Positions 27,040 to 62,772 of a stretch of DNA of 64,000 bases are shown piece by piece (the first letter of the stretch is position 1; the number at the start of each line of letters is the position of its first letter). The DNA lies in NCBI RefSeq assembly GCF_032118995.1, contig NC_092666.1, positions 13,528,501 to 13,592,500 on the forward strand. Direction: 5' to 3'. Below the pieces are notes generated by a model. The model was not told the DNA's origin and searched no databases. It saw only the letters and a program-made list of their open reading frames with translations. The position numbers were made by a program, and so were the translations under genes. This DNA comes from Asterias amurensis. Taxonomy: Eukaryota; Echinodermata; Asteroidea; Forcipulatida; Asteriidae.

Positions 27040-27396
27040 GAGTTTACACCAGAGTAAAAAGAGATGTTTGATTTATTTGTTTAAGTGAAGGTGGATGATT
27101 GGGTTTGGCTCTTTGAAATACTAAAATGCAAACTCAATTTGTTTTATATAATATTTGGTTTGCGGTGTTGTGTATCTACTTGCCAGATAAAGTTTGTAAA
27201 CTGCCTTGCTATACTACACTACACCGCGGAGTAGATTTATCGGATTTTTCGAGAGACTTGTCAGTTCTGAAAAGAACTGTCCTGCTTTTTATTTCCTACC
27301 TGGGCGGAAGGTATAGAAAAGAAGAAACCACTGGGACTACTACTTTAGCTTAGGATCGTTTTTAACTGCACTACCGCGGAGTCAGTTCTTAAATTG

Positions 27397-27440
27397 GTCT
27401 CAATGTTTCGACTAGCTTGCTCTAGTCATCATCAGGAGAC
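27397..27440 (-). ncRNA. Hammerhead ribozyme motif, unit 1
   Basis: Minus strand: GUCUC, CUGAUGA, U, GACUAG-loop-CUAGUC, GAAA, then CAUU, GAGAC. Stem I (GUCUC/GAGAC) and stem II (six pairs) are perfect and the core matches CUGANGA...GAAA. Stem III is minimal, as in Penelope-type hammerheads; here ACAU weakens it. Confidence 0.75.
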
Positions 27441-27463
27441 TGGCGGAGTCAGTTCTTGGATTG

Positions 27464-27507
27464 GTCTCAACGTTTCGACTAGCTCCCCCTAGTCATCGTC
27501 AGGAGAC
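27464..27507 (-). ncRNA. Hammerhead ribozyme motif, unit 2
   Basis: Core CUGACGA, stem II GACUAG/CUAGUC with a changed loop (GGGGAG), GAAAC, then GUU and GAGAC pairing with GUCUC. The palindromic ACGU could form a two-base stem III or pair between two units. Confidence 0.75.
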
Positions 27508-27530
27508 TGGCGGAGTCAGTTCTTAAATTG

Positions 27531-27577
27531 GTCTCAACGTTTCGACTAGCTTGCTCTTATAGTCACCGTCAGGAGAC
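27531..27577 (-). ncRNA. Hammerhead-like motif, unit 3 (core changed)
   Basis: Same layout, but the core reads CUGACGG (last A changed) and stem II has three extra bases. Probably weak or inactive. Confidence 0.6.
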
Positions 27578-27600
27578 TGGCGGAGTCAGTTCTTAGATTG

Positions 27601-27644
27601 GTCTCAACGTTTCGACTAGCTTGCTCTGGTCATCGTCAGGAGAC
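27601..27644 (-). ncRNA. Hammerhead ribozyme motif, unit 4
   Basis: Core CUGACGA, stem II GACCAG/CUAGUC with one mismatch, GAAAC, GUU, and an intact GUCUC/GAGAC stem I. Confidence 0.7.
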
Positions 27645-27718
27645 TGATTTGTCTTCTTGCAAGCTGTGCACTCCTCATCCGGGACCGAGACCTCAGCCGA
27701 CACTGTTATCGACAAGTA

Positions 27719-28050
27719 TTTAAAAGGCACTGTATGGGCACCTTTGGTAATAATTATAAAAAACCAATATTCTCACCTGGCCTATCCCAACATATGCATA
27801 AAATGAAAAATCTGTGAAAATTTTGACTCAATTGGTCATCGAAGTTGCATGAGTATAATGAAGAAGAAAAAACACCCATTGCACAAGTTTGTGTGCTTTC
27901 ATATAATGCGTAATCTTTCTCAAAAAGTACATTTATTTCAGAGGCAGCCATTTATGCAATGTTTCATACTATGAACAGCTCTCCATTGCTCGTTACCAAG
28001 TACGTTTGTTATGCTAACAATTAATTTGAGCAATATTAGTCTCTGTGAAG
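27719..28050. mobile_element. Diverged family A element (reverse)
   Basis: AAAAGGCACTGTATGGGCAC at the left and CTAACAATTAATTTGAGCAA at the right, with TGTGAAAATTTTGACTCAAT inside. These are the reverse-oriented landmarks of family A with many changes. 28051-28496 is unique sequence with a C-rich run at 28243-28254 and no clear feature. Confidence 0.5.
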
Positions 28051-31676: not shown

Positions 31677-34600
31677 CTACCATTGATCTTCCGGAGGGGG
31701 TGACGGCCATCTCACCCTCCTCGGGGGCACCGGTGGAGGGGCGCCATCTCCGTCCTCGTCTGAAGATACCTGGAAGTCGCCCTGCTCATTGAAGTTGAAT
31801 CGTGCGTAGACTGTCGGCTCTTCGGCACTTCGATGGACGGTCGGGTTCACATCGGCCCGTTGGTTTAGTTCAAGATCGGCGTACACGAGCTCCGCCGAGT
31901 GACTCCGAACGTCACTTAAAACAGTCGCCTAAAAAGGATCGTAAATATAATTTGAAACTTCGCATCGTGGACTATAATCAGGTGATGTTAGTGGTGACAT
32001 TATTGCGTTCTGTGGATCCATGCCTACGCAGCAGTGACAGGTTCAGATGGCTTTCTGATGACTGATGCCCAGAAAAAAATCTTAAGACTTTTCTTTTGCA
32101 ACGTCACAGCCCGAGTTTTTACCAACCCAGATTGGAAAACTATGGACAGCCATAAGTGCAAATCAAGAAAAGGGCGCTATTTTTGGTAACAAAGTAACCA
32201 AATTTGTTGATTTTGTTTGAAACAAAACAACCCATTATTAGAAGTATTCTACTTAATTGAAAGTTTGCAGAAAATGTTGAATTTTGTTAAAACATCTGTT
32301 TTTACGATTGGGTGTTTTACTAACAATCAGCCGGCCACCCACCAAGGCGGTTTTTTTATCAACAAAAGAAAGGTCAATACTAATAAAGGACGACCAACAT
32401 TTTGGGCTAGATCGCTCAGTTGGTAGATCGCCGGTGTCAGATGCAATTGTGTCCGCCATGCAATACAGTCCGCTCCGGACACTTTTGCATATGCAATCGT
32501 GTCCGGGGCTATGCAAAAACCGTCCGTTGGAAATATGACTGTACATGTACATGTACATGTATGTGCGCGCGTAAGCGAGCGTGCATGCACTGAACCTACA
32601 TACATGCAGCATGAATATCCACGTATGATTGCAGCGTATACCCAACGGCCGAACATTTCCCATGTCATTCATGACATGCACTTAGCTTGTTAAAAAATTG
32701 CGAACGTATTCCGTCGACCAAGGGCGTTTAATTTACTACAAGGACAGTTTTGCACGGGGCGGACACAACTGCATACGCATATATGTGTCCGGGCGGACAC
32801 AATTGCATTATGCAGCAGCGTCCGGGCGGACACGATTGCACATGCAAAACCGTCCGGCGCACATTATTGCATATGCAATAATGTCCTCCGGATAGTATTG
32901 CATAGAGGACATAATTGCATGCGAAACCGGCACACTAATCCGGAGGTGGCATGCTCATATCCCACTCTAACTGTTCTTTCCCAAAACAAAAATAGTAAAG
33001 TTAGTAAAACATTTCGTTGTACCTTCATTTCCACGTTGTTGGTGGCGCTGTTCACGGGAGTAAAGTTGTCGAACAAAACTTGGTGACCTTGAGTAAAAAA
33101 TATGTTTGTGGAATTTAAATAACTGACTTTGGAAGGTTTTTTTTTGTAGCTTAACACATTATAATAATTCTTCACCCCGGCTGCAGGTCTAAAAAAGATT
33201 GAGTATTTCCAATCATTGAACGGTGAATGTTCAATCCAGAAACTTGGATGAAACATCTTTCAACTGAAAATAACTCACCATTGATTGCCCTAAAAATCAT
33301 TCATGACTTAGATCAAAAGTATTTCACACCTTTGTACTATCGCATCACGGTGGTAAAGGGTCATGCGGGAATCAATACAAACCAAACCGAGTCTGGAAGA
33401 GGAAATAGTCTGACCCATTTGACTTGAGGTATCATGAGATTAGCATTCATAACTTCCGTTTTACATGCTGGGGACCACGACTCGCGGATTGAAAAAGCGG
33501 TATAGTAATGGTATACCATTTGCAGAACTTACCATACTGCCGCACAAGCCTGGGATGGGCTCCAAGGACCGCACTCACCGGTTCCTGACTCGGTAGAGGT
33601 GGGGGCGCCCTAGCGGGGATCTCAGGCGCATGATCGGTGATGACGTCACCGCGTTCTTGGTAGTCATTCTCTCCTTTAAAATAAAATAAAAATAAAAAAA
33701 ACTCCTTATGTAGTACTAGTAGACTTTTGGGACAACAGACGTACCAGTTAAATTCCATTGTTCTCGGTGAGATGCGCATGCTAAAAACTATATAAAAAAA
33801 TGTAAAGGCCAACAATGGTAAGTCTGCTGCCACCTAGCAATGGCAAAGTCTCCCATGCATTTAGGGTGCGTTCGTTTAGCTTCCCTGGGTCGACCCCGGT
33901 GTGTGAATGGGGTTTTTTCCAGGGCGAACGTGTGCAGATAATTACCCACGTTCGTCCTGGGAAAAAAAAACCGCCACACACCGGGGTCGACCCAGGGAAG
34001 CTAAACGAACGCACCCATAGTTTAAAACTACGCACGGCGTATAGGATTGGCGAATGAACAACCTCCTTTTGATTTGAACTGTTAATCAAGGTTTCCCCAC
34101 CTGCACTTTGGTTGAAAACAGCGCCCACTACCGTCGGGATCTGTCTGTTGATTCGAGTAGGATCAGTCGGTCTGCTAAAAAAGAAAAAAAGTAAAAAAGA
34201 AAAACTAAATAAGAAAATTATACTGGCTCTTTAATATAAAGGGCGTCAATGAAACAAAAATATTTAGTTAATATGGTGCAAAATGTGTGTAAAGTTTAGT
34301 ACTATCATGTTTTGAAAAATACTATTTACATTAACCTTCGGAATCCAGTTGAGTTGTTTGTTTGAATTTTACTCAACAAATAATTACAATGCCGTTATAG
34401 TTTTGAAGTTGTTCCAAACTTGTCAACTAAAACAATGGATATAACCTTGTTAGCAGTCTTTATATATTTCCTCAAAATTACTACTTACATTCGCTGCGAA
34501 GGAAGTCTTCTACGACCTGCGAAATATAAAATACACGAACCGTTTTTATTGTCTGAAGATCAGCAGAGTATATCCGATTGAAACGTCGAGACCACAAACA

Positions 34601-54354: not shown

Positions 54355-54705
54355 CTCAACAGTTGGTAAGCGTATCGTTTGGTATCTTGAGCTAACAGTC
54401 TCCTGACGATGACTAGAGCAAGCTAGTCGAAACGTTGAGACCAATTCAGAACTGACTCCGCGGCAGTACAGTTATAACGATCCTATAAGCTAAAGTAGTA
54501 GTCCAGTCTAATTTCTATACCATCCGCCATGGTAATAGTTAAAAAGCAGGACAGTTCTTTTCAGAACTGATAAGTCTCCCGAACCTCCGATTATCTACTC
54601 CACGGCAGTAGAACAAGCAAGACAGTTCCCTAAGAACAACTGTACCTGGCAAGTAGATACACACATGGTGTTACCGCAAACCAAATATACATTGAGCTAA
54701 CAAAC
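54355..54705 (+). mobile_element. Penelope-like terminal fragment with one hammerhead
   Basis: Contains the hammerhead at 54398-54441, then AACTGACTCCGCGGCAGTAC, GGACAGTTCTTTTCAGAACT, GACAGTTCCCTAAGAACAAC, CCTGGCAAGTAGATACACAC and ATGGTGTTACCGCAAAC. The same blocks in the same order occur at 27126-27650 (reverse), and parts at 26259-26367 and 62560-62772. No protein-coding part is present. Confidence 0.65.
54398..54441 (+). ncRNA. Hammerhead ribozyme motif (well preserved)
   Basis: GUCUC, CUGACGA, U, GACUAG-AGCAAG-CUAGUC, GAAA, CGUU, GAGAC. Stem I five pairs, stem II six pairs, core fits CUGANGA...GAAA. Stem III is only AC/GU and palindromic, as described for Penelope-type hammerheads, which may act as dimers. 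Predicted cleavage lies just before GAGAC. Confidence 0.75.
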
Positions 54706-55321: not shown

Positions 55322-57277
55322 TAATGTCTTAATATGGACAATGTTAAAAGTTGTACCCGATGGGCGGGCTCAAGGTAGCTCAAATGAAAGAATGTTTACT
55401 AAAATGTGCAAAGGTCATAAACAATGACAATGTCTAAAGTTGTACCTGATGAGCGGATGGCTCAAGGTAGCTGAAATGAAAGCATGTTTGAATAATTTGC
55501 AAATGTCTTAAAAATGACAATGTTTAAAGTTGTACCTGAAGAGCGGATGGCTCAAGGTTGCTGAAATGAAAGAATGTTTGAAACATTTGCAAATGTCTTA
55601 AAAATGACATTGTTTAAAGTTGTACCCGATGGGCGGGCTCAAGGTAGCTGAAATGAAAGCATGTTTGAATAATTTGCAAAGGTCTTAAAATGGACAATGT
55701 TTAAAGTTGTACCTGATGAGCGGATGGCTCAAGGTAGCTGAAATGAAAGAATGTTTGAATTTGCAAATGTCTTAAAATGGACAATGTTAAAAGTTGTACC
55801 TGATGAGCTCAAGGTAGCTGAAATTAATCATGTTTGAATAATTTGCAAAGGTCTTAAAATGGACAATGTTTAAAGATGTACCTGATGAGCGGATGGCTCA
55901 AGGTAGCTGAAATGAAAGCATGTTTGAATAATTTGCCAAGGTCTTAAAATGGACAATGTTTAAAGATATACCTGATGAGCGGATGTCTTAAGGTAGCTGA
56001 AATGAAAGCATGTTTGAATAATTTGCAAATGTCTTAAAATGGACAATGTTAAAAGTTGTACCTGATGAGCGGATGCTCAAGGTAGCTGAAATGAAAGAAT
56101 GTTTGAATAATTTGCCAAGGTCTTAAAATGGACAATGTTTAAAGATGTACTTGATCAGCGGATGGCTCAAGGTTGCTGAAATGAAAGAATGTTTGAATAA
56201 ATTGCAAAGGTCTTAAAATAGACAATGTTTAAAGTTGTACCTGATGAGCGGATGGCTCAAGGTTGCTGAAATGAAAGCATGTTTGAATAATTTGCAAATG
56301 TCTTAAAATTGACAATGTTTAAAGTTGTACCTGATGAGTGGATGGCTCAAGGTAGCTGAAATGAAAGAATGTTTGAATAATTTGCAAATGTCTTGAAAAC
56401 GACATTGTTTAAAGATGTACCTGATGAGCGGATGGCTCAAGGTTGCTGAAATGAAAGCATGTTTGAATAATTTGCAAATGTCTTAAAATGGACAATGTTT
56501 AAAGTTGTACCTGAAGAGCGGATGGCTCAAGGTTGCTTAAATGAAAGCATGTTTTAATAAATTGCAAAGGTCTTAAAATGGACACTGTTTAAAGTTGTAC
56601 CTGATCAGCGGATGGCTCAAGATACCTGAATTGAAAGAATGTTTGAATAATTTGCAAAGGTCTTAAAATGGACAATGTTTAAAGTTGTACTTGATCAGCG
56701 GATGGCTCAAGGTTGCTGAAATGAAAGCATGTTTGAATAATTTGCAAATGTCTTAAAATGAACAATGTTTAAAGTTGTACCTGATGAGCGGATGGCTCAA
56801 GGTTGCTGAAATGAAAGCATGTTTGAATAATTTGCAAATGTCTTAAAATGGACAATGTTTAAAGATGTACCTGATGAGCGGATGGCTCAAGGTTGCTGAA
56901 ATGAAAGAATGTTTGAATAATTTGCAAATGTCTTAAAATGGACAATGTTTAAAGTTGTACCTGATGAGCAGATGGCTCAAGGTAGCTGAAATGAAAGAAC
57001 GTTTGAATAATTTGCAAATGTCTTAAAATGGACAATGTTTAAAGTTGTACCTGAAGAGCGGATGGCTCAAGGTAGCTGAAATGAAAGCATGTTTGAATAA
57101 TTTGCAAATGTCTTAAAATGGACAATGTTTAAAGTTGTACCTGAAGAGCGGATGGCTCAAGGTAGCTGAAATGAAAGCATGTTTGAATAATTTGCAAATG
57201 TCTTAAAATGGACAATGTTTAAAGTTGTACCTGAAGAGCGGATGGCTCAAGGTAGCTGAAATGAAAGAATGTTTGAA
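55322..57277. repeat. 90-bp satellite array, left block (about 21-22 units)
   Basis: Head-to-tail units containing TTTAAAGTTGTACCTGATGA, GCGGATGGCTCAAGGTAGCT, GAAATGAAAGAATGTTTGAA and AATTTGCAAATGTCTTAAAA. The first units (55322-55830) are irregular in length; later ones are almost all 90 bp. Unit variants (GTTGCT or GTAGCT; GCATG or GAATG; AAATG or AAAGG) are mixed along the array. No long open frame, since each unit has stops. Confidence 0.95.
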
Positions 57278-57969
<692 letters not shown>

Positions 57970-59357
57970 GAATAATTTGCAAAGGTCTTAAAATGGACAA
58001 TGTTTAAAGTTGTACCTGATGAGCGGATGGCTCAAGGTAGCTGAAATGAAAGAATGTTTGAATAATTTGCAAAGGTCTTAAAATGGACAATGTTTAAAGA
58101 TGTGCCTGATGAGCGGATGGCTCAAGGTAGCTGAAATGAAAGCATGTTTGAATAATTTGCCAAGGTCTTAAAATGGACAATGTTTAAAGTTGTACCTGAT
58201 GAGTGGATGGTTCAAGGTAGCTGAAATGAAAGCATGCTTGAATAATTTGCAAATGTCTTAAAATGGACAATGTTTAAAGTTGTACCTGATGAGCGGATGG
58301 CTCAAGGTTGCTGAAATGAAAGCATGTTTGAATAATTTGCAAATGTCTTAAAATGGACAATGTTTAAAGTTGTACCTGATGAGCGGATGGCTCAAGGTTG
58401 CTGAAATGAAAGAATGTTGGAATAATTTGCAAATGTCTTAAAATGGACAATGTTTAAAGTTGTACCTGATGAGCGGATGGCTCAAGGTTGCTGAAATGAA
58501 AGCATGTTTGAATAATTTGCCAAGGTCTTAAAATGGACAATGTTTAAAGATATACCTGATGAGCGGATGTCTCAAGGTAGCTGAAATGAAAGAATGTTTG
58601 AATAATTTGTAAATGTCTTAAATTGGACAATGTTTAAAGTTGTACTTGATCAGCGGATGGCTCAAGGTAGCTGAAATGAAAGCATGTTTGAACAATTTGC
58701 AAAGGTCTTAAAATGGACAATGTTGAAAGTTGTACCTGCTGAGCGGATGGCTCAAGGTAGCTGAAATGAAAGCATGTTTGAATAATTTGCAAATGTCTTA
58801 AAATGGACAATGTTTAAAGTTGTACCTGATGAGTGGATGGTTCAAGGTAGCTGAAATGAAAGAATGTTTGAATAATTTGTAAATGTCTTAAATTGGACAA
58901 TGTTAAAAGATGTACCTAATGAGCAGATGGCTCAAGGTAGCTGAAATGAAAGAATGTTTGAATAATTTGCAAATGTCTTAAAATGGACAATGTTTAAAGA
59001 TGTACCTGATGAGCTGATGGCTCAAGGTAGCTGAAATGAAAGCATGTTTGAATAATTTGCAAATGTCTTAAAATGGACAATGTTCAAAGTGGTAACTGAT
59101 GAGCGGATGGCTCAAGGTTGCTGAAATGAAAGCATGTTTGAATAATTTGCAAATGTCTTAAAATGGACAATGTTTAAAGTTGTACCTGATGAGCGGATGG
59201 CTCAAGGTAGCTGAAATAAAAGCATGTTTGAATAATTTGCAAATGTCTTAAAAATGACATTGTTTACAGTTGTACCTGATGAGCGGATGGCTCAAGGTAG
59301 CTGAAGAAAGAATGTTTGAAAAATTTGCAAACGTCTTAAAATGGACAATGTTTAAAG
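57970..59357. repeat. 90-bp satellite array, right block (about 15 units)
   Basis: The same unit as 55322-57277, in the same orientation and continuing the phase broken by the LINE, so the LINE split one array. Together about 37 units. It ends abruptly at ACAATGTTTAAAGTTA next to a family I element. Confidence 0.95.
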
Positions 59358-59367
59358 TTACGTGAAT

Positions 59368-62471: not shown

Positions 62472-62559
62472 GTAAGTTTGCAGATAGTTTGCTTAGTGTG
62501 GAATTTGCGCTAAGCGCTGAAAAACCTTTTTAGAGGAAAACAAATTCCAACACATTAGA

Positions 62560-62772
62560 AGAGTTTGCGGTAACACCATGTAATAACTATCTCTAAATGA
62601 GTTGGGGTGGTTCTGAAAAGAACAGTTGGATTAACTCGACGTTTCGATCAGTATGCTCTGATCGTTTTAAGACGTTCTAAACTCATAAATAACCTAGCCT
62701 TCCTTAAACGTTGCCGAGAACCACCCCCAACTCATTTAGAGATAGTTATTACATGGTGTTACCGCAAACTCT
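62560..62772. mobile_element. Foldback of Penelope-like end with hammerhead remnant
   Basis: 55-bp arms pair nearly perfectly (AGAGTTTGCGGTAACACCAT to GTTGGGGTGGTTCT at 62560-62614, and the complement at 62717-62772). The loop holds the hammerhead-like motif at 62628-62667. The outer GTTTGCGGTAACACCATGT block is shared with 54664-54686. Confidence 0.65.
62628..62667 (-). ncRNA. Decayed hammerhead-like motif
   Basis: On the minus strand, a seven-pair stem II CGAUCAG-AGCAUA-CUGAUCG and GAAACGUCGAG are intact, but the CUGANGA strand reads UUAAAA. Not expected to cleave. Confidence 0.4.

Follow-up and report, generated by a model that had tools for sequence, protein, structure and literature searches.

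A tandem array of four hammerhead ribozyme units in Asterias amurensis is probably the 5′ end of a single decayed insertion of the Penelope-like element (PLE) type, to which units would have been added by template jumping. The array lies in a stretch of 64,000 nt that was analysed as a whole (the window). The insertion that carries it is most likely a short, non-coding member of a dispersed PLE-type family and is today a relic, since only one unit of the four is perfect. As a motif the array is a compact tandem variant of a ribozyme type that is already known, and it more probably represents an uncommon side product of copying than a source of tiny RNA circles. A first-pass annotation of the same DNA had connected the array both with PLEs and with retrozymes that yield small circular RNAs; its observation is sound with corrections, and the PLE half of its interpretation is supported, while the small-circle half is not favoured.

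The units run head to tail through positions 27376-27646 with the hammerhead sense on the (-) strand and a spacing of 67-70 nt (Table 1), in agreement with the tandem first placed at 27377..27646. TRF on the window gives the array a period of 67 and a copy number of 4.0, and repeat family D1 has spacings of 67, 67 and 70 in + order; in (-) order, the lengths of U1 to U4 are 67, 70, 67 and 67 nt. Each unit corresponds to the initial 67 nt of a dispersed repeat of ~300 bp, whose copies start at the 5′ arm of stem I. In standard hammerhead numbering, the unit consists of stem I GUCUC/GAGAC, a CUGANGA-type core, a single unpaired base between A9 and stem II, stem II GACUAG/CUAGUC, GAAA, and CGUU. 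Position 10.1-11.1 is U.C and is not paired, and stem III is a loopless palindrome, ACGU (A15.1-C-G-U16.1). The loopless stem III and the unpaired base after A9 had been overlooked at first, as had the motif in copy B.

All five stem I pairs are found in all four units, as had been described. The CUGANGA core, also ascribed to every unit, is present in U1, U3 and U4 and fails in U2, which from its core is probably inactive as a ribozyme strand. Stem II is indeed present throughout, although U1 carries a mismatch within it. Two to three units had been thought intact; U3 alone is fully intact, and three of the four are defective. In U4, stem III reads ACAU in place of ACGU (GAAACAUU, with CAUU for CGUU) and the pair C15.2-G16.2 is lost, N7 and N16.2 both being changed (C-G to U-A). 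A coding reading of the array was rejected, as the frame SAEVSVPDEE...ETLRPI stops within U1 and the remainder is repeatedly stopped.

Table 1. Array units, related copies and candidate target-site duplications in the window, with predicted ribozyme cuts on the (-) strand.
Feature	Position	Strand	Description	Predicted cut
U1	27580..27646	(-)	minimal hammerhead and 3′ flank; intact core, C.A mismatch within stem II	27606/27605
U2 (70 nt)	27510..27579	(-)	core CUGACGG (A9 to G), 3-nt insertion beside stem II	27536/27535
U3	27443..27509	(-)	core and stems I and II perfect; loop II altered to GGGGAG	27469/27468
U4	27376..27442	(-)	core CUGAUGA, stems I and II intact; runs on into element body	27402/27401
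Copy A	27151..27375	(-)	PLE-type terminal-repeat body; hairpin CAGTTCTTTTCAGAACTG; ends ...ACCGCAAACCAAATAT	
5′ target-site duplication candidate	27647..27654	(-)	AGACAAAT, immediately before U1	
3′ target-site duplication candidate	27137..27144	(-)	AAACAAAT, 6 nt beyond element end	
Copy B	54396..54688	(+)	single hammerhead unit; 9-nt target-site duplication TTGAGCTAA	
Copy D	62632..62678	(-)	related family; stem II GATCAG/CTGATC (compensatory), decayed core	
Copy E	34546..34593	(+)	diverged related motif CTGAAGA...GAAACGTC; weak, model E 0.072	

The motif is not a product of chance: U3, U4 and copy B, three places in the window, satisfy a strict scan for core, stem I, stem II and the U-H site, and 200 Markov-1 random windows yielded no match. 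The hammerhead core letters (C3 U4 G5 A6 N7 G8 A9 / G12 A13 A14 / U16.1 H17) are present in three of the four units and in copy B. The assignment to the hammerhead family with a type I layout, in which stem I is open, is upheld. A single unit does not form the three closed helices of a type I hammerhead, as stem III needs a dimer, nor does the loopless stem III provide the helix III of the canonical hammerheads of retrozymes; the layout is that of the minimal hammerheads of PLEs, with a palindromic stem III (ACGU in three units, ACAU in U4). A search with a hammerhead covariance model had been suggested as a check, and Rfam returned no hammerhead match in the whole window at the gathering level, nor at E≤10 in 27100-27800 or in loci L132, L137 and L148. 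This probably reflects the lack of a model for a loopless stem III, which would make the result uninformative and not a refutation. A 90-bp satellite, which forms two blocks (55323-57277 and 57968-59359) with an open frame without Pfam match and a TTA microsatellite between them, resembles a hammerhead by letters (CTGATGAGCGG...GAAA, 55323-59359) and was discarded after failing the strict stem test.

The repeat that hosts the array occurs again in the window as copy B, which is headed by its own hammerhead (54396-54442 (+)) and is 79% identical over 307 columns to U4 together with the body of copy A. The duplication flanking the array copy is exact over 6 nt only (ACAAAT), and no tail is seen there. 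Beyond the window, a search of the genome (491.5 Mb, 23 contigs) gave at least 40 scored places from 2934 first-look candidates, a partial list in which copy B is absent, and a 5-kb stretch was examined at each of the 39 scored places not in the window. The exact-core pattern of the family, called f1 here, has 570 matches genome-wide (290 and 280 by strand) and 0 and 0 in controls; among the matches listed, 5 of 100 are another subfamily. A variant core, CTGAGGATGACTAGTG..ACTAGTCGAAAC, whose loop II differs, is found at C2:7035953, C2:10051355, C2:20225038, C2:20572766 and C3:5315033, and is probably another subfamily.

The ends of these copies are well defined. When the query was extended 196 bases upstream, the main match at 20 loci began no more than 4 bases from CAGTCTC, the stem I arm, and five loci have 13-30 nt of extra upstream sequence in common. 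In two of these five, L166 and L150, TATA-like letters in that sequence may hint at a promoter. At the other end, the element finishes in ...ACCGCAAACCAAATATA, and a tail with CATGCAATGC-type letters comes next in 12 of 33 copies. Target-site duplications of at least 7 nt accompany 11 of the 33, whereas 500 re-pairings averaged 0.83 and never exceeded 4, two of the 11 being doubtful (L143 and L159; one within the shared upstream sequence, one a TA run); 8 of the 39 loci, without a full 3′ end, were left out of the duplication and tail counts. In addition, 9 of 39 loci have a head-to-head inverted partial copy no more than 30 bp from the 5′ end. We assign the repeat to the PLEs because of the target-site duplications, the optional 3′ tail and the head-to-head inverted fragments, signs of PLE terminal repeats that are seen at the level of the family, and the link to PLEs proposed at first pass is borne out by them. 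Tails, an inverted terminal repeat and duplications of 8-10 bp are described for PLEs in passages of PMC3846280.

Downstream of the hammerhead, a hairpin, TTCTTTTCAGAA, is shared by three families (27151-27375 (-), 54463-54688 (+), and families in L163 and L164); its outer pairs vary (CAGTTCT..AGAACTG, GGCTC..GAGCC, GGTTC..GAACC), and by eye it looks like a retained RNA structure. Around copy D (62500-62740), flanking inverted repeats GAGTTTGCGGTAACACCATG...GGTTCT resemble a head-to-head pair of PLE terminal repeats. A separate repeat of ~150 nt (ACTTCGATGACCAATTGAGTC...) is seen at window positions 27700-27900 and recurs, in either orientation, at no fewer than 16 further places.

The Penelope and Poseidon pseudo-LTRs, as portrayed in parts of PMC3846280 and PMC11167929, share with these copies a hammerhead-bearing terminal repeat, an optional tail, inverted fragments and short duplications. 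They differ in that the copies here are only ~300 bp long and have no PLE gene adjoining, as judged from 10 frames scanned out of the 12 longest among the 202 that the fetched stretches contain; the frame near the f1 copy in L137 is a LINE-type endonuclease. PLE genes are present elsewhere in the genome, where a Pfam search for GIY-YIG gave 64 places from 114 candidates. In L192, a 921-aa frame has both RVT_1 and GIY-YIG, RVT_1 having been tested in L192 alone. All six stretches beside PLE genes contain a loopless hammerhead (CUGAAGA...GAAAGCUA, palindromic AGCU) that appears in none of 300 random sets, in a scan devised after the GAAAGCUA form had been seen there; the scan demanding GAAAC is negative in the same six. 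In L192 this hammerhead is 521 nt beyond the end of the frame, and the 672-nt 5′ flank has no loopless hammerhead. Since model R1 matches in none of the six stretches, the hammerhead at the PLE genes is of another sequence than that of f1. The six represent in effect one family, because the four that were compared are 95-99.7% alike and RVT_1 was tested in L192 only. The matches listed for L192-L197 include five 921-aa open frames, with near-identical flanks where compared, and by its appearance this gene family was recently active. The PLEs of the Asterias amurensis genome therefore carry the loopless hammerhead architecture in a different sequence, and we infer that a PLE drives the f1 family.

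Short tandems of the unit are much less common than the repeat itself. They are absent from 38 of 39 fetched related loci, the exception being L131, which is 262 kb from the array on the same chromosome. With the further searches, f1 tandems were found at three loci (the window, 67/70/67; L131, 64 nt; L181, 58 nt), and all of them restart at CAGTCTC. The junction AACTGACTCCGC/CAGTCTCC, allowing two mismatches, matches four times at two loci (three in the window, one in L131), and the pattern TTGAGACCN{0,30}AGTCTCCTGA adds L181, with its 58-nt units and a third, cut unit; both patterns include the restart letters (AGTCTCC), so that other restarts would escape them. A looser pattern, CGAAACGTN{25,55}CTGANGATG, is free of the restart letters but requires the core, and it matches 11 places, two of which are window junctions, compared with one for a reversed-pattern control. 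Model R1, applied to six of the nine places outside the window (L180, L183 and L189 were left out), matches L181, L184 and L190 and weakly L186, and has no match in L182 or L185. L184 is a different family adjoining f1. L190 (L190:1458-1697; C22, about 12013300) belongs to a second family, whose units are spaced 90 and 96 nt and each join a minimal hammerhead to a CTTTTCAGAG-type hairpin. L183 (C11:3705288) and L189 (C20:1160938) share CGAAACGTTAG.ATTAATCCTATCTCGA.TTAG...CTAACTGA.GATG and are perhaps a repeat family that mimics the pattern. Tandems are undercounted by patterns that need exact letters, and the genome tandem counts do not cover the pattern CTGANGATGN{8,30}CGAAACGT; within the searches made, tandems are rare beside the 570 exact-core matches. 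L131 and the window array may have one origin, because their junction is the same and base 12 is T in the last unit of both. Matches in viral contigs (at least 120 stretches in a first pattern scan) were judged mostly chance and set aside; a second pattern scan gave 2 stretches.

How might such a tandem arise? In the template-jumping reading, target-primed reverse transcription would reach the 5′ end of the RNA, and the enzyme would then jump to an internal site at about base 58-67 of another template RNA. Every jump would add one unit, subsequent slippage might add more, and the array would then decay. Passages of PMC11167929 report internal initiation for a PLE enzyme. The stem I arm is where copies of the family begin and also where the tandem units found restart. 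The same arrays could also stem from plain tandem duplication of DNA, by replication slippage or unequal exchange within an existing insertion and independently of reverse transcription, which we regard as a serious though less likely rival. Short tandem arrays are common in the window (33 TRF rows), the two units of L131 share a private loss of three bases in CAATTTAAG as a local duplication would yield, and the search patterns favoured restarts at the 5′ end. Against it, the three f1 tandem loci restart at the element 5′ terminus, a base that slippage need not respect, and by eye the junctions show no microhomology. Nothing separates template jumping from DNA slippage decisively.

Two further readings give the array a role of its own. 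It could be a small retrozyme-like unit that is transcribed, cuts itself into RNAs of 67-70 nt, and is circularised and copied. The predicted ribozyme sites are 70, 67 and 67 nt apart, and according to parts of PMC7229834, animal retrozymes share with the array type I hammerheads in tandem repeats and form circles. The same source gives them canonical hammerheads, repeats of ~150-450 bp and demonstrated circular RNAs of ~170-400 nt, unlike the array. With three of the four units damaged, unit junctions (CGC/CAGTC) that coincide with the element 5′ end instead of the ribozyme cut site, f1 tandems at three loci set against 570 exact-core matches, and a whole-array fold energy like that of shuffles (z -0.30), we consider this highly improbable. 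The link to circle-making retrozymes made at first pass is accordingly weak, given also the PLE features and the scarcity of short tandems among related loci. Alternatively, the motif could be a long imperfect hairpin that is not a ribozyme but serves, for example, in protein binding, and in which stem I and stem II are joined by pairing of G5A6N7G8 with C15.2-N16.2-U-U. This hairpin is the predicted minimum-energy fold of a family-typical dimer and of U4, three of its four joining pairs are nearly constant, and U4 has both N7 and N16.2 changed (C-G to U-A). Across families, however, N7 pairs with N16.2 in no more than 5 of 12 sequences, 61 of 500 shuffles do at least as well in covariation score, and the core letters of the hammerhead are mostly kept, so we regard such a hairpin as unlikely. 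Template jumping at the 5′ end of a PLE-type insertion remains the reading that we prefer.

Whether structure was held, as had been claimed from the array, is not something that the four units can show, since core and stems are among the parts damaged. The claim finds some support across families in stem II. In the set A2 (12 sequences), both partners are altered in 5 sequences for stem II pair 18-35 and in 4 for pair 19-34 (9 cells). Of the cells, 84.7% pair, a value that none of 500 shuffles attains (77.8% in shuffles), and 2 of 500 shuffles equal the observed covariation score. Two other measures, the 4 pairs changed on both sides and the 10 pair types, do not exceed shuffled data (163 and 383 of 500 shuffles, respectively). 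In the set A1 (30 sequences), four pairs have changes on both sides, with 16 of 500 shuffles as high. Sequences in both sets were chosen for variety and not at random, and kinship between them can inflate all of these pairing statistics. A lower divergence of bases 5-46 than of bases 68-170 (2.9 vs 7.3%) was rejected as a sign of selection, as copies had been ranked by similarity there; in that comparison 13 of 52 rows were left out (4 window units, 2 L131 units and 7 inverted or second copies).

A lone unit cannot form stem III and two units can, because ACGU is self-complementary. In a transcript of the (-) strand, adjacent units could pair in cis as a double hammerhead, with stem III ACGU:ACGU and a 23-nt loop between units. 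The pairing would be nested, the first 5′ arm with the second 3′ arm and the first 3′ arm with the second 5′ arm, so that the stems I are exchanged, and weak cleavage after GUU could follow. For the three neighbouring pairs, predicted double-hammerhead energies range from -14.5 to -20.0 kcal/mol; two separate loopless units come to -17.3 to -27.1 kcal/mol and the best folds to -28.2 to -33.9. The double hammerhead is thus worse by 11-15 kcal/mol than the minimum-energy fold and by 2.8-8.6 than separate loopless units. Low activity is expected because these energies are poorer than those of the alternatives; acting in cis as a double hammerhead, the units may cut weakly.

Minimal hammerheads of PLEs, with a loopless stem III, were reportedly treated by Cervera and de la Pena in 2014 and by Lunse, Weinberg and Breaker in 2017. 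The array shares with them the CUGANGA core, stem II, GAAA, the reduced stem III, dispersed copies, terminal repeats and the logic of tandems and dimers. It differs in that units stand 58-96 nt apart inside one terminal repeat, at few loci, and in that the tandems were made by repetition of the 5′ end of the terminal repeat. As characterised in portions of PMC7761336 and PMC6155905, PLE minimal hammerheads miss helix III nucleotides, are dispersed or lie in pseudo-LTRs, are also found in tandem and possibly cleave as dimers. The PLE treated in PMC11167929 has in vitro ribozyme activity that core mutations abolish, and the reads of that study show no RNA ends at the site. The double hammerheads of amphibian satellites and avocado sunblotch viroid are also similar, in having a weak stem III that is stable only between units, as presented in extracts of PMC7229834, PMC6155905 and PMC6466107. 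The first of these gives the stem III of the amphibian satellites a tetraloop, whereas the array units have no loop. For hammerhead arrays with units of 58-96 nt, no description was found in the open-licence literature, a search that key primary papers fall outside.

Part of PMC7761336 calls it a mystery how active PLE hammerheads are in vivo and what role they have, and it is here that the array bears on the biology of the family. Where tandems restart at the 5′ end, they may record PLE reverse transcriptase switching between RNAs. Compact arrays are also ready substrates, as they would offer a cis double hammerhead at a spacing of 58-96 nt in place of scattered single motifs. It is conceivable, if improbable, that the 5′ ends of PLEs repeatedly grow short arrays and thereby cis double hammerheads, a reading that rests on units of 58-96 nt in two families at four loci. 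If it were true, self-cleaved RNAs of 58-96 nt, perhaps as circles, could be shed, or the arrays could mark a regular restart point of reverse transcription in the PLE cycle. That short arrays recur where PLEs have their 5′ ends is the point worth following.
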